Source: Couchioplanes caeruleus (GTDB lineage: Bacteria; Actinomycetota; Actinomycetes; Mycobacteriales; Micromonosporaceae). From it: a stretch of DNA of 64,000 nt. Where the stretch lies: the NCBI RefSeq assembly GCF_023499255.1, contig NZ_CP092183.1, positions 3,034,501 through 3,098,500 of the forward strand, given 5' to 3'. Under the pieces are notes generated by a model. The model did no database searches, was not told where the DNA came from, and was given only the letters and a program-made list of their open reading frames with translations. Positions 42,396 through 59,122 of this stretch are shown here, one piece after another; position 1 is the stretch's first letter, and every line of letters starts with the position of its first letter. The position numbers and the translations under genes were made by a program.

Positions 42396-42494
42396 GGCAG
42401 GCCGGTCGTCGGCCAAGAGATCTTGGAAGCGCAGCGTCCAAGGCGTTCGTGGGTACGGTTGGCTGCGCTTCCAAGATGTTTTGCCGGGCTTGCC
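42396..42494 (-). promoter_or_regulatory. Conserved hairpin element, copy A
   Basis: Read on the minus strand: GGCAAGCCCGG, then CAAAACATCTTGG with arm AAGCGCAGC, a loop, GCTGCGCTT, CCAAGATCT and an imperfect outer arm. The GTCAGCGCGACA box follows, and the ATG of the 54-aa gene is 100 nt downstream. Belongs to the A/B/D class. Confidence 0.8.
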
Positions 42495-42889
42495 GCCGCC
42501 GGACGGGTCGGTCATCGCTTCGGGCTGGCAGACGCGGCCCCTGCCTTCACGCCAGTCGACCGCACCGAGATTCCGTCAGGCGGCGGCCCTGGGACAGGGC
42601 TGGTCTTCGCCTGCCGTCAGCGTCGCGCCCGTGTCGCCCACCACCGGTGCACGTACGCCGGAGCAGCAGGGCGCCGCCCCGGCCAGCCCGCCCCGGATGT
42701 CGCGCAGGGCCAGCGTTCTCGGTCGTTGCTGGTACTTGCGCGACTTGGCGACGTCGCGATGTGCGGCCCGCCACGCACCTCGGTCTACGCCGAGGTGGTC
42801 GGCAGCACCCGCCGGGTCTGCGCCTGGGCGAGGGCGCGCTGACGTGTTCGGCGGTGTCATGGTCGTAGCGGTGGCGGGTAGCCGTTGCC

Positions 42890-42925
42890 AGCGCGGCCCT
42901 GGCCGACTCCGGCCAGGGCCGCGCT
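42890..42925 (-). terminator. Hairpin terminator after the FAD oxidoreductase
   Basis: AGCGCGGCCCTGGCCG (42890-42905) pairs perfectly with 42910-42925 around a 4-nt loop. It lies immediately beyond the oxidoreductase stop. Confidence 0.85.
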
Positions 42926-42929
42926 GACG

Positions 42930-44081
42930 TTAGGCGCCGAGGCCGTACCGGTGGCCGAGCTTCGGGCCGAGTTGCACGGAGGCAACAGCGGCGGGCAGGT
43001 GACGGTGTTGCCATCCGTCGAGGGCGGTGGTCAGGTCGGCACCGTACTTGCGGTGCTGGTTGAGGGCGGCGGTCAGGCCGGCGGCTTGTTCGATGCCGTT
43101 GTTGGCGCCGCGCGCGGTGTGCGGCCGCACGGGTGCCAGAGCGTCGCCGATGAGAACGGCGTGTCCGGTACCGACGGGCCAGACCATGCGGGTAGGCGGG
43201 TCGATGTCCATGACGGCGGCAGCCATCCGGGTCTGGGTGTCGTGGACCAAGGCGGCCTGCTCGTCGGGCAGGAGCTGGCGGGCGCTGGCGTCGACGGCGG
43301 TGCGGGCCGCTGGCGTGACGTGCTGGGGCAGGGCGAAGACCCTGCGGGTCGGTGCGGCGCCGAAGAAGTCGATGTACTGGTCGGGGGTGGCGCCGAGGTA
43401 GAACGTCCAGTCGGTGCCGCCGGGGATGGGCGCTAGGTTGAACTGCGCGCCGCTGCGCGGGTCGGGTTCGAAGCGCAGGAAGTCGCGCAGGCCGGGCTGA
43501 CTGCTGGTGGCTTGCCCGCGATGGGCAACGTAGCCGGCATAGTGCAGTTGGCGGTGCGGGTCGAGCAGTCGCCGTCCCGTCGAGGCACGGCCGTCGGCGA
43601 AGATCACGAGGTCGGCCTGCGCGTTGTCGCCGTCGGCGAAGTGCAGCAGTGGCTGGCCGTGCTCGCCGGTCAGGCCGGTGACTCGTTTGCCGGTGTGCAG
43701 GATGCCGGCGGGCAGGCGGTGGCTGAGGGCCTGATGCAGCAGGGTCCAGGTGGTGTTGCGGCCGGCGTACAAGTGGCGGTGTTCGGTTTCGGGGCGGCGG
43801 TGGCAGACGCTGATGTCCATGACCGCTTCGGATTCGTAGGGGACGAACTCGTGCTGGGGGACACCGAGCTGGTCGAGGATGTCCAGGGAGGAGTGCTCGA
43901 GGCCGATCAGGCCGCCGCCGAGCGGGGCGCTGGCCGGGGTCGCTTCGTAGAGGGTGACGTCGTCGAACCCGGCGTGGTGCAGCAGCAGGGCCGTGGTGGG
44001 GCCGGTCAGGGATCCGCCGACGACCGCGACGCGCAGCCCAGAGGTGGTGTGGTGTCTGGTGGCGGTGATGGGGCTGCTCAT
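42930..44081 (-). CDS. FAD-dependent monooxygenase/oxidoreductase
   Basis: Flavoprotein of 383 aa from ATG 44081, with GGAGGTCACC upstream; the longer frame to 44183 runs into the element-B leader. Rossmann FAD motif VVGGSLTG starts near residue 18, and the second FAD motif GDALAPVRPHTARGANNGIEQA is near 295-316, typical of the PHBH-like monooxygenase family. It hydroxylates or epoxidises an unknown small molecule using NAD(P)H. It is a single-gene unit: element B upstream, strong terminator downstream. A metabolic enzyme among transfer genes is unusual. Confidence 0.85.
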   Translation of the reverse strand: MSSPITATRHHTTSGLRVAVVGGSLTGPTTALLLHHAGFDDVTLYEATPASAPLGGGLIGLEHSSLDILDQLGVPQHEFVPYESEAVMDISVCHRRPETEHRHLYAGRNTTWTLLHQALSHRLPAGILHTGKRVTGLTGEHGQPLLHFADGDNAQADLVIFADGRASTGRRLLDPHRQLHYAGYVAHRGQATSSQPGLRDFLRFEPDPRSGAQFNLAPIPGGTDWTFYLGATPDQYIDFFGAAPTRRVFALPQHVTPAARTAVDASARQLLPDEQAALVHDTQTRMAAAVMDIDPPTRMVWPVGTGHAVLIGDALAPVRPHTARGANNGIEQAAGLTAALNQHRKYGADLTTALDGWQHRHLPAAVASVQLGPKLGHRYGLGA

Positions 44082-44178
44082 ATGGTGACCTCCGTGGCGC
44101 GAACCGTGCGACTCGCGCCGGTTGCACCGGCGCTGCCGCGTTGACGAGGCCACGGGGGGACGGGCGCGGTGAGTGGCG

Positions 44179-44280
44179 GGCAAGCCCAGCGGTTGAGGTC
44201 AAAAGATCTTGGAAGCGCAGCGCGGTGTGCGCTGGTGGTGGTCAGGTGCTGTGCTTCCAAGATGTTTTGCCGGGCTTGCC
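44179..44280 (-). promoter_or_regulatory. Conserved hairpin element, copy B
   Basis: Outer arms GGCAAGCCC and GGGCTTGCC (44272-44280 and 44179-44187) enclose AAAACATCTTGGAAGC and GCTTCCAAGATCTTTT. The GTCAACGCGGCA box lies about 33 nt further and the oxidoreductase ATG 97 nt downstream. Confidence 0.85.
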
Positions 44281-44312
44281 GGCCGCTGCCGGGTCGGTCA
44301 TCACTGCGGACC

Positions 44313-44350
44313 GGCGAATGCGGCGGCTGTGGGTGGCCGCCGCATTCGCC
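44313..44350 (-). terminator. Hairpin terminator upstream of element B
   Basis: GGCGAATGCGGCGGC (44313-44327) pairs perfectly with 44336-44350. It separates the unit on its right from element B. A similar hairpin precedes element D at 49636-49673. Confidence 0.8.
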
Positions 44351-44483
44351 GTCGCTGTCTCGCGGAACGGTGAAGCCCTGGGGCCTCACCGCGGCGCCCG
44401 ACGCGACGGTGACCCGCGGAAGTGCGCCGTCTCGACGGACGTCCGGAGGCGGCTCGGTCGGCTTGCGGCTGTCCGCCGCCGGG

Positions 44484-44718
44484 TCAGGTGGTCACCTCGC
44501 GATACTGGGCACGGCGGCGCAGCTCGCGCAGCGGCAGCGGGTAGCTGACTCCGGCGCGGCGTTCCTTGAGGACCGCGATGTCGCCGAGTGGCGTACAGCT
44601 TCTCCTCTTCGGCATCGGCGGCCAGGTATCGCTCGGGGCGCGACCGTGAGCAGGTGCCGCCACCGCTGCCGCTGCCGGCGCATACAGGCACCGACGCCGT
44701 TGTTGTGTTCTCCAGCAT
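44484..44718 (-). pseudogene. Frameshifted 3' fragment duplicated from the PP-loop hydrolase gene
   Basis: Read across frames, this stretch gives HNNGVGACMRRQRQRW, then LLTVAPERYLAADAEEEKL and LGDIAVLKERRAGVSYPLP with LRELRRRAQ. It closely matches the last 75 residues of the intact protein at 45752-46597. At least one frameshift separates the parts and no start is present, so it is a decayed partial copy. Confidence 0.75.
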
Positions 44719-44956
44719 GCGGGTGTCTCACGAGGCACGCCGTTCCATGTCGACTGAATTGCGTCGGCCTCGGTTGCCAGCTTCTACCAGCCGAGGCTCG
44801 ATTCGGTGTCGGTCAGTACCGGTGGTGGGGCAGCGAGACGGCCTGGGCGTTCGGATGCTGTTGCACAACAGCATCCACCGGAGTCCGCCGGGCACTGGCT
44901 GCCGTTCGCCGCGAGGGGTTTGTGAGCGACGGGTACGACCTGGCTGGGACGCCCGG

Positions 44957-45541
44957 TTAGTACGCGCGGTCGATGCGGTCGGCGATCACCATGAGTACCG
45001 CGTGGGCCAGGTCGATCCCGCTGCCTTCGCGGCCGGTCCGCACGAGGTCGTCGTCGTGGAGTGGCTCGCAGCCGATCCAGAACCCATCGACCTTCACGCC
45101 GGCGACCATCCCCCCGGCGTCGTCGTCACCGCCGTCCTCGTCGACCTGGGCGAAGAGCTCGGTGACGCCATCGCCGAACGTCCACCCGAAGGCGGCCGGG
45201 TTCTTGGCGACCGCCTGCACCAGGTCGCAGACGGTTTCGACCGTCGCCGTCCATTCGGCTCGTTCCTCAGGGTCGGCGCCCAGCACGTGGCTGCCGGTCA
45301 GCCACGCCTGCTGCTGATCCTGGTTGACGATGACCAGCGGCTTGCCGGTCCGGTCACCAGGCAGCCGGTCGACGATCGACTGCGCCCACTCGCGCAAACT
45401 TTCGCGGTTGCTGTAGACGACGACGTTCTCCACGGCGGCGCCCCATTCGCCGTTGTGCAGGCGGCCGTACCCGGCTAAGTAGCTGGGGGCCATCAGGTGA
45501 GCGCGTTGACTCTCAATTGCACCCCATTCGATGTTGTTCAT
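44957..45541 (-). CDS. Hypothetical protein
   Basis: Protein of 194 aa from ATG 45541 (AGGAG eight nt upstream). It is soluble and acidic with no recognised family; a VVYSNRESLREWAQSIVDRLPGD helix and a VVETVCDLVQAVAKNP-type helix are followed by an Asp/Gly loop (QVDEDGGDDDAGG) and a C-terminal helix. It may be co-transcribed with the pseudogene downstream and ends at the 44313-44350 terminator. Confidence 0.7.
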   Translation of the reverse strand: MNNIEWGAIESQRAHLMAPSYLAGYGRLHNGEWGAAVENVVVYSNRESLREWAQSIVDRLPGDRTGKPLVIVNQDQQQAWLTGSHVLGADPEERAEWTATVETVCDLVQAVAKNPAAFGWTFGDGVTELFAQVDEDGGDDDAGGMVAGVKVDGFWIGCEPLHDDDLVRTGREGSGIDLAHAVLMVIADRIDRAY

Positions 45542-45751
45542 GTCCGGACTCCTGGTTCTTGTCCTGGCTGTCCGTGCACCGAAACCACTCGACGCCCGAC
45601 TCGCGGTGGGATCGAGCGCCGAGGCGTCGGGACGGTCTGGGTTCGGTTTGTTGCCCGGCCGATCTGGCCACCGACGACGAAGCAGCGCCAGCGCGGCACA
45701 ATTTCCGCACGGCGTGGCGGACGCGACTGCTTCGCACGACCTTGAAGCTGG

Positions 45752-46597
45752 TCAGGCAGCTTTGTCGTCACGCTGGGCGCGACGGCGTAGCTCGCGCAAC
45801 GGCAGCGGGTAGCTGACGCCGGCGCGGCGTTCCTTGAGGATCGCCACGTCACCGAGCGAGTGCCGCAGTTCGTCTTCGTGGGCTTCGGCTGCCAGGTACC
45901 GCTCGGGCGCCACCTCAAGCAGATGCAGCCATTGGCGTTGCCCAGCACGTACGCAGACACCGAAACAGTTGTTGTGAGCGAAACCCTGCTCGTACAGCCG
46001 CGGCGGTGTCAGGCCAACGGTCGTCGCCCAGTCGAGCATCTGATCCTTGCTCAGATAGGGCGGCTCGCACATTGGGAAGCGAACGGTCCACGGCGACCAG
46101 CCCCGCACGATGGCAGGCACCCGGCGCTGCTCGCTCCAGTCGATCCCGACGTACAGCACGGTGCGGTCCGGGTTGGCGTGCTCGGTCAGCCACCGCCGAC
46201 AGGGCTTCTGCTTCAGGTGCACCGAGCAAGGAGCGATGCGAGAATTTCCCATAAAGCGCTGATCGGCGAAAACCTGCCACGGTGTACGGCCGTCAGCGAC
46301 GATCACCGGGTCGACGCCGAAGTGGGCGCCGGCGTCGGCGACGAAGCGCCACAGATCGGGGTCCTCGGCTTTGGTGTCGGCGGCGAGCAGGATCAGATTG
46401 TCAGTGCCATGATCTTCGGCGACGCGCATGGCAGCAGCCCAGCTGCCGATACCGCCAGAGAACTGCACGACGTGCAGGATGTTTTCTGGGTTCGGTGCCC
46501 GGCGCGGGTTCGCGGACGGTTCGCCGCCGCCGGTCAGGTTGATGTGGGCGGAGCGCTCGCCGTGTCCGCCAGCGGCGGACGGCGTCGTGTCGGTCAT
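45752..46597 (-). CDS. PP-loop adenine nucleotide alpha-hydrolase (PAPS reductase-like)
   Basis: Protein of 281 aa; its ATG overlaps the upstream stop (ATGA). VVQFSGGIGSWAAAMR near residues 43-58 is a PP-loop (SGGxGS, where sulfonucleotide reductases have SGGxDS). NLILLAADTKAEDPDL and the C-terminal NNCFGVCVRAG Cys motif match phage- and plasmid-borne PAPS-reductase-like proteins. It would bind ATP or a sulfonucleotide and modify an unknown substrate, possibly DNA or a tRNA base. A decayed copy of its 3' end lies about 1 kb downstream. Confidence 0.8.
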   Translation of the reverse strand: MTDTTPSAAGGHGERSAHINLTGGGEPSANPRRAPNPENILHVVQFSGGIGSWAAAMRVAEDHGTDNLILLAADTKAEDPDLWRFVADAGAHFGVDPVIVADGRTPWQVFADQRFMGNSRIAPCSVHLKQKPCRRWLTEHANPDRTVLYVGIDWSEQRRVPAIVRGWSPWTVRFPMCEPPYLSKDQMLDWATTVGLTPPRLYEQGFAHNNCFGVCVRAGQRQWLHLLEVAPERYLAAEAHEDELRHSLGDVAILKERRAGVSYPLPLRELRRRAQRDDKAA

Positions 46598-47145
46598 GGC
46601 CTGACCGCGGCGAGGGTGCGCAATTCGATCGCGCGAGTAAAGACGCCGCGGTCGGGCACGCTCCAGCCGTCGCCGCACCGGACGTGCTCTTGCCCGTGCA
46701 GGTCGACCATGACGTACCACCCTTGCTCGCCGCGGGCCTGACGCGTGGGGTCCACTGGCCCGTGCTCGTCGAGGTAGGCCGTGACTCGAGCGGTGGACTG
46801 CTCGCGTAGGTGGTTGGTCCACCGGTATGCGGTGCTGGACGTCCAGTCGGGGTGTTCGCAGGATTGGTAGGCCAGCGAAGCCGCGGCTGCGGCGACGGCT
46901 TCGGGGTCGACCGGGCCGGGGTAGGGGTAGAAGCGGTAGGTGTCGGCGTGCCGGTCGCGGAAGTCGATCGGGCCGGGCCGGTCGCCGTCGTGGTCGTACG
47001 GGTAGCGGTGGGCGACGCTGGCGAGGTTCTCCTTCCACAGCATCCGACCGGTCTCGTCGGCTTCACCTGCTGAGATGATCTCCCACGCTATGGCGGCGGT
47101 CAGCAGCAGGTCGAGGTGGTCACGGCTGACGATCCAGGCGCTCAT
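46594..47145 (-). CDS. Hypothetical protein
   Basis: Protein of 183 aa from ATG 47145 with GAAGGGA upstream. It begins MSAWIVSRDHLDLLLTAAIA, a start common to actinobacterial plasmid and phage proteins of unknown function, with GRMLWKENLASVAHRY following. Later Trp/Tyr-rich helices (YQSCEHPDW, YRWTNHLREQ) are seen, with no catalytic motif. It is coupled by a 4-nt overlap to the PP-loop hydrolase, so the two probably work together. Confidence 0.72.
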   Translation of the reverse strand: MSAWIVSRDHLDLLLTAAIAWEIISAGEADETGRMLWKENLASVAHRYPYDHDGDRPGPIDFRDRHADTYRFYPYPGPVDPEAVAAAAASLAYQSCEHPDWTSSTAYRWTNHLREQSTARVTAYLDEHGPVDPTRQARGEQGWYVMVDLHGQEHVRCGDGWSVPDRGVFTRAIELRTLAAVRP

Positions 47146-47268
47146 CAGTAATCCCTTCGTTAGGGGCGTGGCGCGGCTAGGTGACCGCGAATATGTCTTC
47201 GTGGCGCAGCGCACGAGACGTGGTGGCTTGCGCGTTTCGGCGACGCGGTGGTGGTAGGTCACCAGGGC

Positions 47269-47301
47269 GTTGCCCGGCCGGGTGCCAACCGGCCGGGCAA
47301 C
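47269..47301 (-). terminator. Hairpin terminator after the 47311 gene
   Basis: GTTGCCCGGCCGG (47269-47281) pairs perfectly with 47289-47301, just beyond the stop of the element-C gene. Confidence 0.8.
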
Positions 47302-47310
47302 CGGCGATAA

Positions 47311-47913
47311 CTACGGCCGCAGGGTCGGGGTGGCCAGCTCGTTTTTTTCGGTCGTGACGGTGAAGCCGGTCGTGATCCCGGCGCGCAGGGCATAGGCCAT
47401 GCCGTCTTCGTCAGCGGTCTGGTCGTTCATCTGCTCGTTGGTGACGGTGAAGGTGACCGTGTACGTGGTCACCGGAAGCGGCACGTCGTCCAGTTGGTAG
47501 GTGTCGATGAGCTCGCGGTACAGGCGGCGGTACTGGCCCCCGTCGTAGCCGAGTTCGCAGGCTTTCCTGATCGCCTTCTTCAGGCGCGCCTTCGTGACGA
47601 ACGGGTCGACGCCCTCTGCCGCGGTGAACCGCTCGGCGACGGCGTCCCGGGGGTGGCAGCGCTCGCAGGACGGATCGTGGCATCCGCCGTCGGACGCGCG
47701 GAACGGCTTGAATGACAAGCTCTCGTTCAAGGCCCGCAGGGTGACGTCCTCGGCCTCTGAGCACCAGCTGTTGTCGCTGGCGTGTCGGCGGATCCTGGCC
47801 AGGACGTCGACCAGGTAGAGCGAGCCCTCTGGGGCGGCCGGCCGCCCGTCACCGGCGGAGGTCTGCTCGGCCGGGGTGGCAGACGTTGTCTGGTCGATGA
47901 CGTTCTCCGTCAT
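47311..47913 (-). CDS. Hypothetical protein behind element C
   Basis: Protein of 200 aa from ATG 47913 with GGAGGCACC upstream. The N-terminal 35 residues are low-complexity. The central part has a Cys/His cluster (GCHDPSCERCHPRD) that may bind zinc, followed by a helical stretch (RLKKAIRKACELGYDGGQYRRL) and a beta-rich end (TTYTVTFTVTNEQMND). No family is recognised. It is a complete unit: element C, gene, terminator. Confidence 0.7.
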   Translation of the reverse strand: MTENVIDQTTSATPAEQTSAGDGRPAAPEGSLYLVDVLARIRRHASDNSWCSEAEDVTLRALNESLSFKPFRASDGGCHDPSCERCHPRDAVAERFTAAEGVDPFVTKARLKKAIRKACELGYDGGQYRRLYRELIDTYQLDDVPLPVTTYTVTFTVTNEQMNDQTADEDGMAYALRAGITTGFTVTTEKNELATPTLRP

Positions 47914-48024
47914 GGTGGTGCCTCCATCAGGCTGTAGCTGATGCGGCCCGCCCTGCTGGACCGGGTGATCCCGGCGCCGGGGGTGCCGCGCTGACGGGAC
48001 CGGTCAGAGCCCGCACGTGGGCCT

Positions 48025-48116
48025 AGGGGCGCAAGCCCCGATCGAGTCAGAAGATCTTGGCGTCGAGCGGAGCGAGACGGTGTGGGCCAAGATGTTCTGC
48101 CGGGGCTTGCGCCCCT
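48025..48116 (-). promoter_or_regulatory. Conserved hairpin element, copy C
   Basis: The outer stem is 15 bp: 48025-48039 pairs perfectly with 48102-48116. The inner arms AACATCTTGG and CCAAGATCTT carry the conserved C-C mismatch. GTCAGCGCGGCA follows and the ATG of the 200-aa gene is 111 nt downstream. Nearly identical to copy E. Confidence 0.88.
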
Positions 48117-48144
48117 GGCCTGGGGTGGGCTGACCTCGGGTCCC

Positions 48145-48330
48145 TCAGCGAGCGGCTCCAGACGCCTCCGGGGTTAGCTCGTAGCGGGTATGCGCGACGT
48201 ACAGGCGTCGAGGCTGCTGCAGGAGGCGCAAGTGGTCAGCCGGACTTGCTGCTCGCCGGTGTCGAGGCGCCACGGCCAGCAACCGGTCGCAGGTCAGTGG
48301 GGACGGTCCTCCCGTTGTCCGCCTGTGCAC
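48145..48330 (-). CDS. Possible 61-aa protein
   Basis: Frame from GTG 48330, overlapping the end of the upstream gene by about 37 nt. The C-terminal half (LRLLQQPRRLYVAHTRYELT) looks protein-like. No ribosome-binding site is obvious; coupling to the gene before it is possible. Its stop lies at the 5' border of the conserved element-C sequence. Confidence 0.35.
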   Translation of the reverse strand: MHRRTTGGPSPLTCDRLLAVAPRHRRAASPADHLRLLQQPRRLYVAHTRYELTPEASGAAR

Positions 48331-49046
48331 GTGGCCTCGGGCGGCAGAGTGCGGACGAGGCGGTACAGCGACGGGCCGTCGGGGTAGCGGCGGTAGAAGT
48401 CCTGCAGCTGTGTGTGCGCTGCGGTGTCGCTGGAGTTGCGTGCAGCGAGCCGGTGCACGGAGCCGACGACGTGATTGAGGAAGTAGGCCGGCCAGGTGAA
48501 CATCCGCATCGCGGCGATGCGTCCGGTGTCGGCGTGCACGAGGAACGTGAAGGTGCGGCTGTGGGTGCCGCGCGGTATCGGCCGGCCGGTGAAGGGTTCG
48601 CTGAGCCGGTGCGGGTTGAACGGGGCGTCGTTCCACGGTGAGTCGCCGTACTTGAACAACAGGAACCCGTTGACGTCCTGCTCGGTCCAGGCGAAGCGTG
48701 GGGTGCCGGACTCGACGGCGGAGATTTCACGTCGCTCGGGGTTGGTCAGGAAGATCGCCAGCCGGGTGTCGCCGTCGGAGTCCAGCCACAGGTGGGAGCC
48801 TTGCGGCCAGCTGGTGCGGGCGGGGTCGAACATGTCGCCGACGCGGTAGAGGTGACCCTGGTCCATAGCGCCTTGGGCGGGTCGGTGGGCTGTGCACGAT
48901 GCGCCCGTGTTGTGGTGCCAGCCGCGGCTGGGGTCGGTGACCAGCCACCATGGCTGGCCGGGGCCGAGTCGGTGTCCACCGGCGTCGCAGTGCTGCACGG
49001 TGGGTGATGCGGGGTAGGGGCCGGTCACGGTTATGTCGTTGTCCAT
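48294..49046 (-). CDS. Hypothetical protein
   Basis: Protein of 250 aa from ATG 49046 with AAGGAAG upstream; the longer frame is leader. It has CDAGGHRLGPGQPWWLV and SRGWHHNTGASCTAHRP near the N-terminus, which may form a small Cys/His site, then a mixed region (HLWLDSDGDTRLAIFLTNPE, RTFTFLVHADTGRIAAMRMF). No family is known to me. No hairpin element precedes it. Confidence 0.68.
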   Translation of the reverse strand: MDNDITVTGPYPASPTVQHCDAGGHRLGPGQPWWLVTDPSRGWHHNTGASCTAHRPAQGAMDQGHLYRVGDMFDPARTSWPQGSHLWLDSDGDTRLAIFLTNPERREISAVESGTPRFAWTEQDVNGFLLFKYGDSPWNDAPFNPHRLSEPFTGRPIPRGTHSRTFTFLVHADTGRIAAMRMFTWPAYFLNHVVGSVHRLAARNSSDTAAHTQLQDFYRRYPDGPSLYRLVRTLPPEATCTGGQREDRPH

Positions 49047-49172
49047 CGTTTCTTCCTTGCTGGGTCTGCGTGAAGGCGGTCTGGTGGTCATGCCGGCAAC
49101 CCGGCGTAGCAGCGCCGCTGAGGTCGCGCGCTGGGCGACCGCCGTTGCTGATGCGCCGCGTGCACGCACGTA

Positions 49173-49215
49173 GGTCCTGGTGGGGCGCTGCCGAGGGCGG
49201 CGCCCCACCAGGACC
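49173..49215 (-). terminator. Hairpin terminator after the 60-aa membrane protein
   Basis: A 16-bp perfect stem, 49173-49188 with 49200-49215, starting eight bp beyond the stop of the 60-aa gene. Confidence 0.82.
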
Positions 49216-49223
49216 CGCGGGGA

Positions 49224-49406
49224 TCAGTGCAGCGAGAGCAGGACGAGCAGCGGCGTCTTCTCCAGCACCGCCAGCGCGGCGACGTGCGCGATGAGAAGGC
49301 CGCCGAGGTGCACCAGCGGGTGGGCCAGGTGACGGGCGGTCGTGCGCAGCGACCGGCGGGTGGTGGTGGTCGGCTCGGTGGTGGTGACCTCGGTGTTGTC
49401 GTTCAT
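49224..49406 (-). CDS. 60-aa membrane protein behind element D
   Basis: Small protein from ATG 49406 with GGAAGGCAGC upstream. A Thr/Glu/Arg-rich hydrophilic N-terminus (MNDNTEVTTTEPTTTTRRSL) is followed by one hydrophobic segment (LVHLGGLLIAHVAALAVL, then LLVLLSLH). It has its own hairpin element (98 nt upstream) and terminator. Size and topology resemble entry-exclusion or inhibitor proteins, but nothing proves this. Confidence 0.7.
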   Translation of the reverse strand: MNDNTEVTTTEPTTTTRRSLRTTARHLAHPLVHLGGLLIAHVAALAVLEKTPLLVLLSLH

Positions 49407-49504
49407 GGCGCTGCCTTCCGGTTAGCGGAGGGTGCGGCGTCTGCCGGTTGGCACCGGGGCTGCCGCGCTGACAGGCCATTGGGGGGAACGGCACGGTGGC
49501 GGCT

Positions 49505-49602
49505 GGCAAGCCAGCTCTTGGGTCAAAAGATCTTGGAAGCGCAGCACGGGAGGCGTGAGTGAGGGTTGGTGCTGCGCTTCCAAGATGTTTTGCCGGCTTG
49601 CC
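49505..49602 (-). promoter_or_regulatory. Conserved hairpin element, copy D
   Basis: Outer arms GGCAAGCC/GGCTTGCC (49595-49602 and 49505-49512) enclose CAAAACATCTTGG with AAGCGCAGC, and GCTGCGCTT with CCAAGATCTTTTG. The GTCAGCGCGGCA box follows and the ATG of the 60-aa gene is 98 nt downstream. Confidence 0.85.
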
Positions 49603-49635
49603 TGACTGTTGCCGGGTCGGTCATCACTGAGGACT

Positions 49636-49673
49636 GGCGAACGCGGCGGCCGGGTGTAGCCACCGCGTTCGCC
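49636..49673 (-). terminator. Hairpin upstream of element D
   Basis: GGCGAACGCGG (49636-49646) pairs with 49663-49673, the same arrangement as the hairpin before element B. It would end transcription from the right. Confidence 0.7.
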
Positions 49674-49966
49674 GGGCCGGCTGTGCCGGTCGGTTCGCCG
49701 AGCTGACACCTTCGGTGAGCGCCGGGGGCGGCTGCGCCGCGCTGCGCCGGGTCCGGCACGATTCTCGGACTCCACGCGGTGTTGTCGGCGGCGCAGGGCC
49801 TTCACCCCGCGGGCCGGTCGTGGCAACTCGCAGATGCCGTGGGCCTGTCCGTAGGCCACCGGGCGCCAGAAGGTATCGGGTGGCGTCGTCGGAGGAGCGC
49901 ACCCCGACCTTGACGAGCTTCGCTGAGCGGCGAAGCTGAACGGTCCCTGTGGTGATGTGGGGCGGG
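49674..49966. other. Gap without a supported gene
   Basis: About 290 bp. Minus-strand frames contain a protein-like stretch (FWRPVAYGQAHGICELP near 49850) but no start signal or intact gene; it may be a decayed remnant. A GC-rich palindrome lies near 49722-49747. Confidence 0.35.
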
Positions 49967-50865: not shown

Positions 50866-51303
50866 TCAGGCCGGCTGCAGCTCCCGCTCGGGCTCAGTGG
50901 CGGCGGGCTCAGTGGTGGTGGGATCCCAGGCGTCCCCGGCAGGCTTGTCGTCGGCCACCGACTGGGCACCGGCGAAGCGCATGGACAACGCCACGTTCTC
51001 GGCGGTGACCTCGAGGACACCGCCGGCAGTGCCGTCCTGGCGGATGAACGGCCACACGTTCAGGTCGTCGCGGGCGTTCACGACCACGGTGTCGCCCTTG
51101 CCCAACTCCGCGCACCGTTCGGCGAGCTCGCCCCAGACGGTGACCTGGACCCACATGGGGGCCGTGTCGACCCACTGGCCCTCGGACTTGCGGCGGCGGT
51201 TGTGGGCGACCCGCAGCCGGCACAGCGCCTGTCCGCTGGCGGTGACGTCGAGCTCGGGCTTGGCGGCGAGGTTGCCTTCGAAGGTGAGGGTGAACTGCGA
51301 CAT
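50866..51303 (-). CDS. ssb: Single-stranded DNA-binding protein behind element E
   Basis: SSB of 145 aa. The OB-fold (1-110) has FTLTFEGNLAAKPELDVTASG, LCRLRVAHNRRRK, WVQVTVWGELAERCAELGKGDTVVV and a short acidic tail ending ERELQPA rather than the usual DDDIPF, so interaction with host SSB partners may differ. It is preceded by element E (114 nt upstream of the ATG) and followed by a terminator. SSB is a hallmark of conjugative leading regions, where it protects the entering strand. Confidence 0.88.
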   Translation of the reverse strand: MSQFTLTFEGNLAAKPELDVTASGQALCRLRVAHNRRRKSEGQWVDTAPMWVQVTVWGELAERCAELGKGDTVVVNARDDLNVWPFIRQDGTAGGVLEVTAENVALSMRFAGAQSVADDKPAGDAWDPTTTEPAATEPERELQPA

Positions 51304-51417
51304 GTGCTGACTCCCGTTCCGGTGATGCGGTGCGGCCCATGCACGCCGTCCGGATCGGGTGATCCGGGCGCCGTGGTGCCGCGCTGACGGGGCCGGTCAG
51401 AGCCCGCACGTGGGCCA

Positions 51418-51510
51418 AGGGGCGCAAGCCCCGTCCGAGTCAGAAGATCTTGGCGTCGAGCGCAGCGAGACGGTGTGGGGCCAAGATGTTCTGCCGGGGC
51501 TTGCACCCCT
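51418..51510 (-). promoter_or_regulatory. Conserved hairpin element, copy E (upstream of ssb)
   Basis: The outer stem is 15 bp with one mismatch (51418-51432 with 51496-51510). Inner arms AACATCTTGG and CCAAGATCTT show the same C-C mismatch as the others. GTCAGCGCGGCA follows and the ssb ATG lies 114 nt downstream. Confidence 0.88.
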
Positions 51511-51794
51511 GGCCTGGGTGGGCTGACCTTCGGGTCCCTCAGCAGCGACACCCACCGACGTCCACGGACATGCCCAGCCGGGATGCCAGGACCGCAAACT
51601 GCCGCCGTCACGAGCAGCTGTCGTTGCCCGCCCCGTCCGGGCCGCCGCTGCGCGGGCTCATAGCCGCACCGCAGATCCCCGACATGACGGACGGGCGGCG
51701 CGTCGTCTCGCCGCCCGCGTCGAGGACGGATGTCAGTCCCACCGTTGGCCAGCCGAGCTGGTTGCTCGCGGCGGTGACGGCGGGGCAGGGGACG
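51511..51794. other. Gap between primase-polymerase gene and element E
   Basis: About 285 bp. Its left 35 bp match the sequence 5' of element C on the minus strand (CTGAGGGACCC). No gene is supported; the minus-strand frame 51608-51868 overlaps the primase end and lacks a clear start. Confidence 0.35.
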
Positions 51795-52994: not shown

Positions 52995-53214
52995 CGGCGA
53001 CCCGACCGCGGCGCCGGCGCCGAACGCGGATCACAGATGCCAGGTCTGAGTGCAAGACGAGAAGGGCGAGGCACGACGGCTCCTTGGGTGACGGCGGTGC
53101 TACGACCGCGGAGGCGGATAGGTCGACGACGATCGGGTCGTCCGCCGGTGTCACTGGCGGACGGTGGTGGCTAGTGGTAGAGGCCGGGTCGGTGACGGTC
53201 ACCGTCACGCGGGC

Positions 53215-53253
53215 GCCGTGGTCGGCGGCCGTACGCGGCCCGCCGACCACGGC
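53215..53253 (-). terminator. Hairpin terminator after the 53258 gene
   Basis: GCCGTGGTCGGCGG (53215-53228) pairs perfectly with 53240-53253, directly beyond the stop. Confidence 0.8.
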
Positions 53254-53257
53254 GCGG

Positions 53258-54064
53258 TCAGAGCCGGGTATTCCACCGACCGGGCTGCGGGCCGTCGGCG
53301 GGGTGGCTGGGCTGGTGTTCGTGATCGATCACGACGGCGTCGGGACGGCTGGGCTGCCACTGGTCGCCTGCCGCGGTCACCGCGTGGCAGCCCGCGACGG
53401 TGCAGTGCCGGGTGAGGGGCTCGAAGACGATGCCGTAGTGGCCGGCGTCGTCGGTGCTGACATACAGCGAGAGCGGTCCGTCGGGGTGCAGCACCCGGCG
53501 GACGCCGTTTGGGGCGCTGATCAGGGCGGTGAGCTGCAGCGACCAGCTGGCTGCGGCGTCGCGGTAGTGGTCGCTGTCGGTGCCGTAGGCGTCGGCGAGC
53601 GCGATCAGGTGCTGCTGGCAGGACGCAACGGTGGCGGTGGCCTCCCGGCTGATGTCCAGGCGAACCAGGTGGGGGTTGCCGCCGATGGGTTGCAGGAGCG
53701 GGGTGGGTACGGCCGGGTCGTCGTAGCTGCTCGGCAGCAGCGCGGCGAGGTCCATGCCGGTCGAGGTAGCGGCGCCCCAGGTGTAGGCGCGATCAGTCAC
53801 GGTGGTGACGATCGCGGTCCATTGACTGACCGGAATCGCGTGGCTGCTGCGATCGAACAGCTCGTCATCGTGGTCGCGGTATGCCCGCCCCTGGCTGGCC
53901 AGCAGAGCATCGAACACCGCGGTGACGACAGCGGTGACCAACTCATGTGGGCCAGCAGCGTCACCGTGGATCTGGCCGCGGATCGTGTCCAGCTCGGTGC
54001 TTGTCAAAGGACGCCGAACGGCGAAGACCTGCGGCGGTGAGGTGGGTGTGAACCAAGGACTCAT
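53258..54064 (-). CDS. Hypothetical protein
   Basis: Protein of 268 aa from ATG 54064 (CGGAGTTGC upstream). It is soluble with long helices (STELDTIRGQIHGDA, PHELVTAVVTAVFDALLASQG, ATVASCQQHLIALADAYG) and a beta-rich end (GPLSLYVSTDDAGHYGIVFEPL). No family is recognised. It is a single-gene unit bounded by the ParB terminator and its own terminator. Confidence 0.7.
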   Translation of the reverse strand: MSPWFTPTSPPQVFAVRRPLTSTELDTIRGQIHGDAAGPHELVTAVVTAVFDALLASQGRAYRDHDDELFDRSSHAIPVSQWTAIVTTVTDRAYTWGAATSTGMDLAALLPSSYDDPAVPTPLLQPIGGNPHLVRLDISREATATVASCQQHLIALADAYGTDSDHYRDAAASWSLQLTALISAPNGVRRVLHPDGPLSLYVSTDDAGHYGIVFEPLTRHCTVAGCHAVTAAGDQWQPSRPDAVVIDHEHQPSHPADGPQPGRWNTRL

Positions 54065-54388
54065 AATGCAACTCCGAATAGGAAAACTGTCCCGGCACGT
54101 CAACAGGCGCACCGGGACAGCAGTTGGTGGGATCAGTGGGCGAGTTACCGCGAGGGGGTCCACAGCCCGCGGGCTGGCGCGGTTGCCGACGATGAACGAA
54201 TCGGCGACGAACCGTGGCTGGCCACGCAGCGGGAACCAACGGTCGTGTCGGTGACACCGCGGCACCCGTGGTTCGGCGCTCGGATGTCCGCACGGTGTCC
54301 AGGCGAAGCGCAAGGCCGGAATGCAGCATCAGATGACGACCGGTGTGCCTGCTCCGTCCAACCGAACCGCCGCATAGTTGCTGGTGAG
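54065..54388. other. Leader region of the 53258 gene
   Basis: About 320 bp between the ParB-like terminator and the next start. No gene is supported and the six-copy hairpin element is absent. A CCGGCACGTCAACAGGCGCACCGG palindrome-like stretch (shown here only by its CCGG ends near 54092 and 54111) might form a short leader hairpin. Confidence 0.35.
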
Positions 54389-54438
54389 GCGCCGCGCTGC
54401 GTCCCCTGCCGTTCCGGCGAGGGAGCACAGCGCGGCGC
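54389..54438 (-). terminator. Hairpin terminator after the ParB-like gene
   Basis: GCGCCGCGCTG (54389-54399) pairs with 54428-54438; an inner TCCCCTGCCG/CGGCGAGGGA arm extends it. Confidence 0.8.
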
Positions 54439-54443
54439 GTGCG

Positions 54444-56327
54444 TCAGGCGGCGTCGGAGAATTCGTCGCGTTCGTGCCGCTCGTCGGTGACGTCGTCGTC
54501 GACCTCGGGGCGGTCGAATGATGCCGCGATCACCACGCCGTCCGCATTCTGGCTTGCGGCGAGCACCTCGGCGATCTCCTCGGGCTCCGCAGCACTGGGC
54601 TTCCCGAAGCTCGGCACCTCACCCATCTCCACCTGCTCCGCGGCGTCGGGTACCTCTGCGGCGTCGGGCACCTCTGCGGCGTCGGGCACCTCCTCGACGT
54701 CGGTGGCCAGCGAGGCGTCAGGGATTGTTTCGTCGGAGTCGTCCTCGTCCTCGCCGTCGTCATCCTCGTCATCGGCGGCGGCCGAGGCCGTCCAGTCCTG
54801 GTAAAGCTCCTGCTCGTCGTCGGTCAGCGGGTACCGGCGCTGGCGCAGTTCGTCGTACCAGGCGACGGCCGCCTGCTTGTCGAGCCAGTAGCGGTTCGGC
54901 TGCGTGGTGCCGTTGAGGTTGTACTCCAGCGCGCAGATGTACTTGGCGACCAGGCTGCGGCGCAGCCGGTCCTCGCCGGCGCCGGCGAGGGTGTCGTTGT
55001 CCGAGCCGCCCAGCGCCTGGTACAGCTCGTCCAGGTCAGCGGAACGACTCATCGACTTGCCCAGCGTGGCCATCCGCAGCGCAGGCACGAACAGGGCACG
55101 GGCGCCCTTGGCGGTGCCGAACTTCGCGACGATGAACTCCCGGCGCACCGTCGCGGCCAGCGTGAGGCGCTCGAGTCGCTCCTTGCCCTGCTGCTCAGCC
55201 AGTTCTTTGGCAGCGATCTGTTCCGGGCTCAGACCACGGTGCGCCGCCGAGACCTCCTTGCGGCGGGTGTAGCCGCGCTGGTCTGGGTCGTCGCAGTACA
55301 CGACGGTGCGGGCCCGACCGCCGTCCTTCTCGACGAAGGCGTGGAAGCCGGGCTGGGTTTTGACCGCCTCGACGTCGACCGGCTGACCGTCGGCGTCCAC
55401 GAGCAGATCCGCGGGTACCGCGGTGCCGTCGTAGCCGAAGCCGCGCGGCTTGGGTGTCACGTCGACGCCAGCCACCATCAGGTGGCCCTTGGCGACGTCG
55501 CGGTTGCGGGCGTAGGTGTGCTTGTCGCGCAGCCGCGACAGCTCGTGCTTGAAGGCGTACTCGTCGCCCAGCTTGTCCAGTAGCTTGCTTTGGGCGTCGG
55601 GGTCGTCGGCGAATTCCTCCAGCGCGAGGGCCTGGTCCAGGGTGAGGGTGCCCTGGTTGAGGGCGCGCTGCGCGGTGGACGGCAGGGCCCGGGCCTTGAT
55701 GGCGGTGCGGACCTGGTTGACGTCGGTGCGGCGGGCGTCGGCGATCTGCTGCTCGCTGAGCCCCAGGTCGAGCAGCATCTGGTAGGCGTCGGCCTGTTCG
55801 ATGCCCTCGAGGTCCTTGTGGTGGTCGTTGACCTCCAGCATGTGCAGGATGAGCTGGATGTCGTCGTCGGTGTCGGCGATGAAGCACGGCAGGTCGAAGC
55901 GTTCGGCCTCGATCGCCGCGTGGCGGCGCCGCAGCCCGTCGACGACGGCGAAGTGCTCGACGGGTTCGCCGCCGGGGACGAGGTTGCCTTCGGCGTCGGT
56001 GGGCGGGATAAGCCCGAGGGAGCGCACGACCAGCGGGGCCCGGACGCCGAACAGGCGCACCGAGGCGATCAGGTCGCTCAGGTCGCCCAGCTTCTTGCGC
56101 TTGAAACGCTGCGGCTCGTGCAGGTGGCGGGCGTCGAGCAGCCCGGCACGGAACGGCAACGGGGTACCGTCCTGGCCGGTGTTGAGGTGGACCGGCTCGT
56201 CGGCGACCTCGCCGATCAGTGCGGGCTCGATGGTCACGAGGTCGGTACCGGCGGCGGTGTCGAGCTCCTCGGGCGCGGCGACGTCGTTGTCCTGGAAAGT
56301 CTCGGTGTCGTGGGTGATGGTGGTCAT
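54444..56327 (-). CDS. ParB-like nuclease-domain protein
   Basis: Protein of 627 aa from ATG 56327 (AGGTAGTTCC upstream). The ParB/Srx-like domain (about 60-190) includes KLGDLSDLIASVRLFGVRAPLVVR and EHFAVVDGLRRRHAAIEAE, followed by a KorB-like helix-turn-helix (LGLSEQQIADARRTDVNQVRTAIKA). The middle (about 330-480) is unassigned. The acidic tail (about 520-627) carries three tandem EVPDAA hexapeptides. With no ParA beside it, a stand-alone role in the leading region is more likely than partition. Confidence 0.82.
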   Translation of the reverse strand: MTTITHDTETFQDNDVAAPEELDTAAGTDLVTIEPALIGEVADEPVHLNTGQDGTPLPFRAGLLDARHLHEPQRFKRKKLGDLSDLIASVRLFGVRAPLVVRSLGLIPPTDAEGNLVPGGEPVEHFAVVDGLRRRHAAIEAERFDLPCFIADTDDDIQLILHMLEVNDHHKDLEGIEQADAYQMLLDLGLSEQQIADARRTDVNQVRTAIKARALPSTAQRALNQGTLTLDQALALEEFADDPDAQSKLLDKLGDEYAFKHELSRLRDKHTYARNRDVAKGHLMVAGVDVTPKPRGFGYDGTAVPADLLVDADGQPVDVEAVKTQPGFHAFVEKDGGRARTVVYCDDPDQRGYTRRKEVSAAHRGLSPEQIAAKELAEQQGKERLERLTLAATVRREFIVAKFGTAKGARALFVPALRMATLGKSMSRSADLDELYQALGGSDNDTLAGAGEDRLRRSLVAKYICALEYNLNGTTQPNRYWLDKQAAVAWYDELRQRRYPLTDDEQELYQDWTASAAADDEDDDGEDEDDSDETIPDASLATDVEEVPDAAEVPDAAEVPDAAEQVEMGEVPSFGKPSAAEPEEIAEVLAASQNADGVVIAASFDRPEVDDDVTDERHERDEFSDAA

Positions 56328-56645
56328 GATGGAACTACCTCCACATAGAGCAGTGATGAGAGTTGCGCTCGGGCGGGCGCCCGAGCGGGGCTGGCCTGAT
56401 CCGCACGGGGCCGGCCGATCGGCGGGACCCGCAGGGCCCACCCCGGCGGTCACATCGACCCAGCGGTGGCTGGTAGGGGTGGGCTTGCGGGGCGCGACGC
56501 GGGCGGCCAGGATCAGTGGCCAGCCCACGCCGGCCCCGACCCGCAGCCCGACGACACGTCCTGCTCTTCACAGCGGCTTGGTCTGCGCTGGCACTTGTTG
56601 CGTTGGCAGAACGATTGCGGGTCAGCGCCGGGTCTGCGCCAGGGA
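56328..56645. other. Leader of the ParB-like gene
   Basis: About 320 bp with GC-rich inverted repeats (for example GCTCGGGCGGGCGCCCGAGC at 56367-56386) but no gene and no copy of the six-copy element. It contains the DUF4192 stop side and the ParB promoter. Confidence 0.4.
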
Positions 56646-57560
56646 TCAGTGCGGGGTCGACCGCCGGAGGCGGTGTGCGGGCATGTGGGCACGCACGACG
56701 CTGGTCACCAGCCGGGTGAGCCGGTCACCGGGACCTTGGTGGATGGCGCGTTTGCACGCCACGATGGCCAGTGCGTGTTCGTCGCGCCGCCACGCGCACC
56801 AGGCGGCCAGGGTTGCCGGGCCGGCGACGTAGCGGTCCGGGACGCGGCGGGCCACATCCAGCCACAGATCGCGTTGCCACATGCACGCGCACACGACGCT
56901 CCACGCCGTCTCCAGGGCGTCGCGGTGGGTCAAGGCCAGCGCCAGCGGTGCCACCTGGCCGGGGCTGAGGCGCTGGCCCTTCTTGGCCGTGGCCAGGACG
57001 TCGTCGAGCAGCCCGGTGACGGTGACATCTGCTGCCAGCGCCGCCAGTGCGGTTTCCGTCTCGGCCTGTGCCACCAGGTCCGGGGCGATCAGCGTGGTCA
57101 GGGCCTGCCGCGACGGCAGGGCCACGACGCCGTCGACGGTGAGCTGGGCGGCGACCGGGCTGGTGGCCGGGTCGATGTCCATGCCGCGGCCGGCCGCACA
57201 CGAGCAGCCGTCGAGCAGGCACACGCACCGGGGACCGGTCACCCACAGCAGGGTGTGCAGCGGAAGGAACAGGTCGATGATGCGACCCATCCTTGCCAAG
57301 GTGGGCCGCATCGTCGGCGGGCCGTAGCCGATCACCGCGACCTGCGCACACGGTTCGGCCGGGGCCCGCAGCACAAGATGTTCGCTCAGTGTCTCGGCGG
57401 AAAACCGGATGGGCTCGGCGGCCACGGCGAGGATGCGGCGATCGGCGCCGAGGTAGACCGCGACGATCTCATCACCCGGGTGGTAGCGGAGCAGGTACGG
57501 CACGGCGCCGAGCAGATCCTGCAGGCTGCGATGGGTGGTGTTGGGCAGCGGGTCGGTCAT
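56646..57560 (-). CDS. DUF4192-family protein
   Basis: Protein of 304 aa from ATG 57560 with AAAGGAGCTC upstream. The hallmark DUF4192 features are present: a start region LQDLLGAVPYLLRYHPGDEIVAVYLG, a CVCLLDGCSCAAGRG segment near 110-125, and a late tetratricopeptide-like part (RRVPDRYVAGPATLAAWCAW, ALAIVACKRAIHQGP). The family is common in actinomycetes, often with unknown function. Here it precedes the ParB-like gene in the leading region. Confidence 0.82.
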   Translation of the reverse strand: MTDPLPNTTHRSLQDLLGAVPYLLRYHPGDEIVAVYLGADRRILAVAAEPIRFSAETLSEHLVLRAPAEPCAQVAVIGYGPPTMRPTLARMGRIIDLFLPLHTLLWVTGPRCVCLLDGCSCAAGRGMDIDPATSPVAAQLTVDGVVALPSRQALTTLIAPDLVAQAETETALAALAADVTVTGLLDDVLATAKKGQRLSPGQVAPLALALTHRDALETAWSVVCACMWQRDLWLDVARRVPDRYVAGPATLAAWCAWRRDEHALAIVACKRAIHQGPGDRLTRLVTSVVRAHMPAHRLRRSTPH

Positions 57561-57705
57561 GATCGAGAGCTCCTTTCGCAGACGAGCGGGTCGGAAGGCT
57601 GCGCTGGATGACCAGCGCCGCTGATGGGAGGCATCGAGCTGCCGGGCCATGAGGTACGCCGGGCGTCGCGCTGGCGCGGTATGCCGGGACCTCCGCAACT
57701 GCAGG

Positions 57706-57738
57706 GCAGGGCGCCCACCGAGTCGGTGGGCGCCCTGC
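57706..57738 (-). terminator. Hairpin terminator after the DUF932-like gene
   Basis: GCAGGGCGCCCACCG (57706-57720) pairs perfectly with 57724-57738. The same AGGGCGCCCACC core recurs in the terminator at 60411-60441. Confidence 0.85.
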
Positions 57739-57772
57739 AACGGCAGCGAGGAAAGCCGACCGGGGGGCTACA

Positions 57773-58924
57773 TCAACCGGCTGCTGCGGCCAGGTGCAGC
57801 GCCTTGGAAGCGGTGGTCTCCATCCGGTAGGCCGCGTCGGCGTCGTCGATGCTGCGCGCTACGGAGGTGACGGCCTGCATGATGCCGCCGGCGCTGAGGT
57901 CGGCCCCGGCGATGAAGTGCGCGAGGATCGCGTCCTGCTGGTCCTTGGTGTACCGCAGCTGCTGGGAAACGACCTTGATCGTGGCTTCCGGCTTGCGGAC
58001 CGTGACGCCGGCTGCGCGTTCCAGGTCAGCGACCGCGCGGGCGACGAACTCGACGTTGAGGTAGGTGCTGATCGTGTCGACGGTCTGCGCGGTGACCAGG
58101 TCCAGGAGCTTGCGCATCGTCTCCGCCGAAGGGTCGACGATGCCGTCGTCGTCGGTGATACGGGCACCGATGTGAGTGCGCCCGACTTCGCCGCGCTCGA
58201 CGGTCTGGCCGTTACGACACACTTCGATGCGCAACCACGGGGCCAGCGAGTACCGGCCCTCACCGGTCTCGGAGTTCTGCAGCAGGAACCCGCCGGAGAT
58301 GACCGGTAGGTCACTGCCGCGGCGCCCGTCGAACGGCGACCGGTAATTACGCAGCAGCTCCGGCGCCATCACCTGCACGTCGGGGGACACGAACCGCACG
58401 TACATGCGCCGGTCGGTCAAGTCACACGAGGCGACCTGCACCGCGACGCCGGCCTTCTCGATGCCCTTGATGGCCGCCATCAGCACGTCGAGGTTGTTGA
58501 TCCGCAGATACTTGTCGGACAGGAACGCCCGGGCGGTGCCGTCACCGCTGTCGGGCGTGCGACGCAGGCAGCGCACCAGGAACCGGCGGTCGTCGCGCCC
58601 CAGCCAGCTGTTGATGTTGGTATCCAGCAGCGGCACGTTCTCACGGGCGCAGCGGCGCAGATACGGCACCGGAATGTCGAGCTTCGCGCCGACGCCACCC
58701 AGGGCTACCTCGGATAGGCGAAAACTGCCCGTGGACAGGTCTACGCCCGTCGAGGTCAGGATGGGTGCGGTCCGCGGAATGATCAGATTGCCGTTGGCGG
58801 CATGCATCGTTGTCGCGCTGGCGATGACATCCACCGACCGGGCTTGTTGATCTCTGAGTGTGGTGATCAGGCTGTTCATCCCGATGTGGCGGTTCGGGGC
58901 CACTGCGAGGGTCGGCTGAGCCAT
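57773..58924 (-). CDS. DUF932-like protein behind element F
   Basis: Protein of 383 aa from ATG 58924 with GGAAGGCC upstream; the longer frame enters the element-F leader. It resembles DUF932 phage/plasmid proteins: LIIPRTAPILTSTGVDL, LRRCARENVPLLDTNINSWL, then FLVRCLRRT, and RAFLSDKYLRINNLDVL in the core (80-160). The C-terminal half is helical. DUF932 proteins are frequent in plasmid leading regions. It has element F 126 nt upstream and a terminator downstream. Confidence 0.75.
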   Translation of the reverse strand: MAQPTLAVAPNRHIGMNSLITTLRDQQARSVDVIASATTMHAANGNLIIPRTAPILTSTGVDLSTGSFRLSEVALGGVGAKLDIPVPYLRRCARENVPLLDTNINSWLGRDDRRFLVRCLRRTPDSGDGTARAFLSDKYLRINNLDVLMAAIKGIEKAGVAVQVASCDLTDRRMYVRFVSPDVQVMAPELLRNYRSPFDGRRGSDLPVISGGFLLQNSETGEGRYSLAPWLRIEVCRNGQTVERGEVGRTHIGARITDDDGIVDPSAETMRKLLDLVTAQTVDTISTYLNVEFVARAVADLERAAGVTVRKPEATIKVVSQQLRYTKDQQDAILAHFIAGADLSAGGIMQAVTSVARSIDDADAAYRMETTASKALHLAAAAG

Positions 58925-59050
58925 GGAGAGGCCTTCCAATTGGGCCGCTACCGTGATGGTGGCGGCCGGCGGGCACGCTCGCCCGGGCCGTGGTCGGCCG
59001 GGGTGAGCGCGTGCTGGCCCGCCGGTGCCCGGGGCCGTGCCCGGCCGGCT

Positions 59051-59122
59051 GGGGCGGCAAGGCGTTGAGGACGAGAAGATCTCTGGCCGAAGGCCAAGAT
59101 GTTCTCGGCTCGCCTTGCGCCC
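59051..59122 (-). promoter_or_regulatory. Conserved hairpin element, copy F (short form)
   Basis: The shortest and most diverged copy: CAAGGCG/CGCCTTG outer stem (59058-59064 and 59111-59117) and GAGAACATCTTGGCC with GGCCAGAGATCTTCTC inner arms around a 3-nt loop. A weaker match to the downstream box follows. The DUF932-like ATG is 126 nt downstream. Confidence 0.7.

Follow-up and report, generated by a model that had tools for sequence, protein, structure and literature searches.

Hairpin elements in the probable leading region of an actinobacterial integrative conjugative element

The stretch of DNA analysed here, a 64-kb window comprising positions 3034501-3098500 of the 8.42-Mb single-contig genome of Couchioplanes caeruleus, carries what is best read as an actinobacterial integrative conjugative element of the MobF type. 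It encodes a MobF relaxase and a type IV coupling protein, and the genes to the right of the relaxase gene lie mostly on the minus strand; ssb, a ParB-like gene and a DUF932-type gene are among them (Table 1). Six genes of this block are each preceded by a copy of a conserved hairpin, which is the subject of this study. An initial annotation of the window had described six copies in the same orientation, and all of them are indeed found on the minus strand where it had placed them. Recomputed distances from the end of copies 1-6 to the start codon are 100, 97, 111, 98, 114 and 126 nt, respectively, in agreement with the 97-126 nt given earlier. However, while all six copies are real, the count overlooked a related element of different sequence in the same window, referred to below as class D.

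The string ACATCTTGG occurs six times on the minus strand of the window and not at all on its plus strand. A pattern search of the entire genome returned five sites on a single strand, all within this cluster, and neither the opposite strand nor a reversed-pattern control gave any; copy 6 falls outside this search, as its loop is shorter than the pattern permitted. An eighth copy in the same genome, which is of the copy-6 type, is located 5.7 kb past the window (G000:C1:3104178; L074:5678-5739). When folded as single-stranded DNA (plus strand), the six copies reach z-scores of -5.6 to -8.4, and for each of them none of 200 shuffles was equally stable.

Table 1. Hairpin elements and genes of the window discussed in the text
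Feature	Position	Strand	Remarks
Copy 1, class A	42349-42539 (hairpin and flanks); core 42397-42493	-	5' of 54-aa gene
Copy 2, class A	44132-44325; core 44180-44279	-	5' of FAD-binding protein gene
Copy 3, class B	47983-48156; core 48031-48110	-	5' of 200-aa gene
Copy 4, class A	49458-49647; core 49506-49601	-	5' of 60-aa gene
Copy 5, class B	51376-51550; core 51424-51504	-	5' of ssb
Copy 6, class C	58997-59168; core 59057-59118	-	5' of DUF932-type gene; short apex, without GTCAGCGCGGCA foot
Class D element	41850-41927; extended hairpin about 41827-41958	-	apex hexamer CATAAT; plus-strand fold -52.5 kcal/mol, z -8.8
Type IV coupling protein (TraG/TraD/TrwB type)	19962-21698	+	PF12696 3.5e-19, PF10412 3.5e-12
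MobF/TrwC relaxase-helicase, 1479 aa	35608-40047	-	PF08751 9.3e-69, PF13604 1.5e-42; gives probable oriT side
115-aa protein	41258-41605	-	3' of class D element; without Pfam, NCBIfam or PHROG match
54-aa protein	42131-42295	-	without Pfam, NCBIfam or PHROG match
FAD-binding monooxygenase-like protein	42930-44081	-	matches below curated cut-offs; longer frame also seen
200-aa protein	47311-47913	-	without Pfam, NCBIfam or PHROG match
60-aa protein	49224-49406	-	without Pfam, NCBIfam or PHROG match
SSB (single-strand DNA-binding protein)	50866-51303	-	PF00436 1.8e-17, PHROG 44
ParB-like protein	54444-56327	-	within hairpin-bearing gene block; PF17762 2.4e-6, PHROG 6218 5.4e-40
383-aa DUF932-type protein	57773-58924	-	several relatives labelled DUF932 domain-containing by NCBI; without Pfam match here

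Relatives and classes of the element

Two covariance models were used, one built from the six window copies (R1) and one from 34 copies (R2). With R1, hits were obtained in 12 of 200 genomes from the same family, one of these being the own genome. At the genus level, R2 hit 17 of 67 genomes, one of them (G180) by chance; at the level of the order it hit 6 of 397 and at that of the class 6 of 394. Four of the class-level matches (L117-L120) are read as chance, being situated in coding sequence and devoid of the flanks, which leaves the own genome and one Prauserella. A pattern scan of genome contigs yielded 22 stretches, two of which (L099 and L112) are likewise chance matches without flanks. 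The 20 accepted stretches, which either have the flanks or sit on contigs equal in length to contigs already analysed, derive from Actinoplanes, Paractinoplanes, Winogradskya, Amorphoplanes, Nucisporomicrobium, Rugosimonospora, Micromonospora, Prauserella and Amycolatopsis. By the covariance models, relatives are present in Micromonosporaceae and in some Pseudonocardiaceae. R2 was also run on five further plasmids of the MobF type, namely pA387, pPcorDSM45821b, one from Amycolatopsis, one from Pseudonocardia and part of one from Natronoglycomyces. Nothing convincing emerged (best E 0.035), and a scan of three of the five for strong hairpins revealed no clear pattern.

The covariance searches produced 136 rows, of which 76 were taken and 75 kept, the other 60 being 59 opposite-strand echoes and one fragment in L087. 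Two candidates were dropped before counting, namely L050:9383, which has no flanks (L050 was searched once), and L087:9980, whose removal makes the G180 match a chance one. A pattern for class D recovered 13 copies, four of them already among the 75, and addition of the remaining nine brings the collection to 84 elements. Genuine copies outside this collection are present in L058, L095, L098, L106, L108 and L115.

Based on their flanks, the 75 elements fall into classes A (26), B (30, or 31 when L036:14917, sorted among the others, is included), C (8) and D (4), with seven others. Class D has the same layout but a different sequence and is positioned between the other copies and the relaxase gene wherever both are seen. 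The classes mostly keep the same genes across species: class A precedes FAD, 54-aa-type and 60-aa-type genes as well as a few other small genes, class B precedes ssb-type genes or the 200-aa gene, with a 65-aa gene at L051:8166 as the exception, and class C precedes a DUF932-type gene in six of eight cases, the other two being followed by a gene that encodes about 215 aa. In L051, the elements at 8166-8243 and 12649-12726 have identical cores although they are 4.5 kb apart and face different downstream genes, which suggests recent duplication or gene conversion. A further class with the stem TCAAGGG...CCCTTGA was observed at L086:9464-9538, L092:9855-9929 and in L095 (G178, G170:C2 and Rugosimonospora); no relaxase was found in G178, and the apex mismatch is absent.

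The element is one interrupted hairpin under selection

In a strand-neutral alignment of the arms, the class A and B examples displayed show pairing that begins at the apex and extends as far as the GTCARCGCGGCA box, whose partner is an upstream CCGC.GCTGA or similar sequence. Thus, the element is a single hairpin with interruptions, each arm measuring some 60-80 nt, and the box is its 3' foot. The initial annotation had noticed that five copies are followed by a GTCAGCGCGGCA-like box; behind copies 1-5, this box pairs with upstream sequence and forms the foot of the longer hairpin. The sense strand has the sequence AACATCTTGG ... CCAAGATCTT close to the apex and contains a C.C mismatch, corresponding to G.G on the other strand. 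This mismatch, first noted in full-length copies of the window, is found at the same place in 70 of 74 distinct elements, and below it an extra unpaired stretch of several nucleotides is present in the template arm.

Paired substitutions in the outer stem had been taken as evidence for a selected secondary structure. In the six copies alone they are not significant (one two-sided pair; 316 of 500 shuffles reach as much), but they become so when relatives are included, as eight pairs with 30 cells showing double changes, related copies taken as separate cells, are reached by none of 500 shuffles. The pairing is under selection, even though covariation alone does not tell on which strand. The covariance-model search that had been proposed as a check has returned covarying homologues, and the view of a selected structure upstream of leading-region genes holds. 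An Rfam search of the 64-kb window gave no match at gathering scores.

Spacing to the downstream gene is fixed as well. The distance from core to start codon is 92-108 nt in all 26 class A elements and 106-127 nt in all 30 class B elements, with identical numbers obtained under an 80-135 nt rule and a wider 20-400 nt rule; for three class B elements, an earlier rule that gave preference to strong ribosome-binding sites had picked a start codon further downstream. A ribosome-binding-site-like string accompanies the start codons of the class A and B genes.

The template DNA strand as the probable carrier of the selected fold

When both strands are folded as DNA, the template strand has the lower energy for 75 of 75 cores and for 73 of 75 extended elements. 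Measured against dinucleotide shuffles, the strand difference averages z -2.55, with values below zero in 71 of 75 cases. The energy of the template minus that of the sense strand is -9.15 kcal/mol for the elements (n=67, 97% better on template) as compared to -2.57 kcal/mol for other strong hairpin windows at the same loci (n=991). Consensus folds point in the same direction, with values of -45.95 (template) versus -25.31 (sense) for class B (30 of 31 sequences), whose sense fold loses the middle stem, and of -67.82 versus -42.53 for class A (19 of 26 sequences).

The strand-neutral alignment provides further evidence. Isolated mismatches, as read on the template strand, are G.T rather than A.C (188 versus 26), G.G rather than C.C (123 versus 9) and A.G rather than C.T (106 versus 10). 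Counted as unique events they number 94 versus 15, 39 versus 4 and 48 versus 9, whereas base composition predicts ratios of about 1.3, 1.5 and 1.1, respectively. The molecule under selection is thus very probably the template DNA strand and not an RNA.

A promoter-like hexamer beside the apex

On the non-template arm, right beside the apex, 68 of the 71 elements outside class D carry CAAGAT (67) or CAAGTT (1), the three misses being one CACGAT and two CAAGAC. All 13 class D elements have a hexamer at this place, namely CATGAT (6), CATAAT (5), CAGGAT (1) or CAGAAT (1). Overall, CANNNT is found beside the apex in 82 of 84 elements. On the opposite arm the hexamer string is often interrupted; it is absent in 15 of 71 elements outside class D, in class C by an extra base. 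Judged by sequence, CANNNT resembles the actinobacterial -10 motif TANNNT, both varying at positions 3-5, although independent changes in the hexamer are few. In Streptomyces, TANNNT is reported for 80.4% of 3,570 start sites, accompanied by a less conserved -35 motif, NTGACC (PMC4895711).

Ordinary -10 motifs are scarce at these genes. TANNNT does not occur between element and start codon in any of the 56 class A and B genes, and is present within 250 nt upstream in only three of them (class A 1/26, class B 2/30). Within about 440 nt it is found in 5 of 56 cases as compared to 28% of random windows, and in the last 250 nt in 2 of 56 as compared to 23 of 124 other gene-like starts. The class D gene differs in having TAAGAT close by (about 41671-41676), which by eye has the look of an ordinary promoter. 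In the same place (41660-41720, minus strand), a palindrome, CCATTTAT...ATAAATGG, together with the nearby TAAGAT resembles an ordinary, perhaps repressed promoter of the 115-aa gene.

Polarity relative to the relaxase gene

Element direction is uniform within each of 32 sources (stretches, some from one contig), 18 of which contain at least two elements. A query with the N-terminal 482 residues of the relaxase encoded in the window gave a match in 23 of 24 genomes, and in 19 of 24 it is on the same contig and the same strand, downstream of the elements. G126:C50 and G170:C2 contain elements without a listed relaxase. In the conjugative plasmids F and R388, the origin of transfer (oriT) is located upstream of the relaxase gene. 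With the same arrangement here, the template strand of the hairpin-bearing genes would be the transferred strand.

Further palindromic sequences were seen in this part of the window. Between the relaxase gene and the class D gene, positions 41120-41269 contain a near-perfect 16-bp hairpin (GCGATGCGCGGGGACC...), which could be part of oriT or a terminator. A hairpin 5' of the ParB-like gene (56410-56500, minus strand) folds with -58.6 kcal/mol on the template as compared to -48.1 kcal/mol on the sense strand (calculated for 56376-56525); it was rejected as a member of the family since the conserved apex is absent, and possibly represents a different type of site. Two near-identical palindromic 31-nt sequences (57707-57737 and 60411-60441; 94% complementary) flank the DUF932-type gene.

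A proposed model for expression from the incoming strand

We propose that the copies are putative single-stranded-DNA promoters akin to Frpo of plasmid F and to ssi sites, and that each of them probably serves its own gene, ssb included. In this model, the element would enter the recipient in single-stranded form and the incoming template strand would fold into the interrupted hairpin at each copy. Near the apex, the -10-type CANNNT on the non-template arm (CAAGAT, CATGAT, CATAAT, CAGGAT and others), usually followed by the conserved G.G mismatch, an A/T-rich stretch and the bulge in the template arm, may provide a pre-weakened transcription bubble. Host RNA polymerase with the main sigma factor would then bind and start at the hairpin and read the transferred strand towards its 5' end, so that the genes behind the hairpins (ssb, the DUF932-type gene and those for small proteins) would be transcribed before a second strand exists. 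Conversion to double-stranded DNA would remove the hairpin, and the class A and B genes, which have no ordinary -10 motif nearby, would fall silent once the DNA is double-stranded.

This scenario has precedents. In plasmid F, Frpo1 and Frpo2 are located in the leading region, Frpo2 5' of ssb; both are required in vivo for early expression and are reported to rebuild a -10 and a -35 element (PMC9849209). Expression from the incoming single strand has been shown in vivo for F and is genetically supported for ColIb-P9 (PMC9849209). The present elements share with Frpo one copy 5' of ssb and a long hairpin that is interrupted and A/T-rich in its apical stem, and a stable long stem-loop is formed by their template strand, as expected for an Frpo-type promoter. 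They probably also share a place in the leading region of a MobF system and the direction of the leading genes towards oriT/tra. Frpo/ssi promoters are further characterised by SSB-stimulated transcription of the single strand by RNA polymerase. For Frpo2 of F itself, a lean in favour of the transferred strand was seen (z -1.97 within ±75 nt). In contrast to Frpo, the actinobacterial hairpins are G+C-rich, carry the -10-type hexamer beside the apex and number seven in this one window, as compared to two reported in F. Searching an F stretch (L094) with R2 gave nothing up to E 5, and blastn of copy 4 against PLSDB returned six records, the best at E 1, with no Frpo-bearing enterobacterial plasmid among them. 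Thus, the elements appear functionally Frpo-like, while membership in an Frpo/ssi sequence family is not supported, there being no sequence relation. Single-strand origins of rolling-circle plasmids are also hairpins that RNA polymerase reads in single-stranded form, in this case to start synthesis; unlike the elements described here, they are not known to be tied to start codons.

With the ssi promoters of ColIb-P9 and the candidates of Samuel et al., the hairpins would share the role of single-strand promoters 5' of leading genes. Samuel et al. (2024) sought Frpo by BLAST to five known sequences together with the E. coli -35/-10/UP consensus, and also proposed more distant candidates (PMC11541004); this design would not be expected to detect the hairpins described here. 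A 2026 survey compared those five and 13 further putative sequences with PLSDB (PMC12826799). Words starting with actinobacteri or actinomycet do not occur in the main texts of these two papers, and among the open-licence papers listed, judged by titles and abstract openings, we found no report of actinobacterial single-strand promoters.

Weighing the evidence

Several observations weigh against the proposed promoter function. The first base of the hexamer is C, and not T as in TANNNT. TTGACC/CTGACC strings (NTGACC) do occur in classes A and B, but upon reading by eye none was found at the usual -35 spacing from the hexamer, whereas Frpo is reported to rebuild both boxes. As to the strand, other hairpins at the same loci are slightly biased too, 70% of them folding better on the template strand, and the bias in class C, the copy-6 type, is weak (G.T 5 versus A.C 2 in eight elements). 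The covariance model, for which the sense strand was used and which is limited to the core, has 21 fixed pairs, and wobbles at these are near even (40 G.T versus 30 A.C on the sense strand). Deamination of a single strand could add G.T mismatches, though not G.G or A.G, and the counts take related copies as separate cells. The lean of Frpo2 in F fades to z -0.75 for ±130 nt, and its mismatches show no bias (G.T 1 versus A.C 2). With regard to polarity, the relaxase is upstream of the elements in 3 of 24 genomes, which belong to another family of bacteria (G225, G403 and G412), G178 has no relaxase match, and in G196 the relaxase is on another contig. Hairpins but no nic site were identified between 40048 and 41260, so that assignment of the transferred strand relies on relaxase polarity.

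Among the alternatives, a structured 5' leader, in which the transcript of an ordinary upstream promoter forms a hairpin that regulates the gene, would fit the covariation and the position 5' of start codons. However, pairing is not kept better on the sense strand, an outcome that the near-even wobbles of the core pairs, which would fit a leader, offset in part. In the arms, the sense strand accumulates precisely those mismatches that RNA tolerates least (A.C, C.C and C.T), and the lost middle stem of class B, the rarity of upstream TANNNT and the lack of an Rfam match likewise render a leader RNA highly unlikely. Very improbable, too, is a double-stranded operator for an element-encoded regulator, the inverted repeat serving as binding site or cruciform: repeats of one orientation before neighbouring genes, an invariant apex that could be a protein site and the ordinary-looking promoter near the class D gene would agree with it, yet a duplex site has no strand preference, while that of the elements exceeds the preference of other hairpins, and the arms change in paired fashion.

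The same strand evidence and the presence of several copies per element would be expected if the hairpins were ssi-type initiation sites that recruit RNA polymerase or primase mainly for priming of the second strand, with gene expression being secondary. This we consider unlikely, because all 56 class A and B elements keep a spacing to the start codon that is fixed within about 20 nt and accompanied by a ribosome-binding-site-like string, and priming needs no such spacing. A mobile or recombinogenic repeat of the REP/MITE type without regulatory role, suggested by copy number and palindromic nature, is hardly credible given that all five pattern matches in the own genome are in this cluster and that the classes mostly retain their genes across species.

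Significance

On balance, we favour the idea that the hairpins represent an independently evolved, previously undescribed class of single-stranded-DNA promoters in Actinomycetota, in which a lone -10 element beside an apex with a fixed mismatch may suffice, nearly every early gene would be served by a separate copy, and ordinary promoters would be missing, which would confine expression to the minutes in which the DNA is single-stranded. Until now, single-strand promoters have been known chiefly from gut-bacterial plasmids, and the elements described here would add an actinobacterial candidate with many natural variants. The strand-specific signature, that is the excess of G.T and purine-purine mismatches, may be used to seek such promoters without a known consensus, and the tentative -10 register makes the question approachable with short oligonucleotides.

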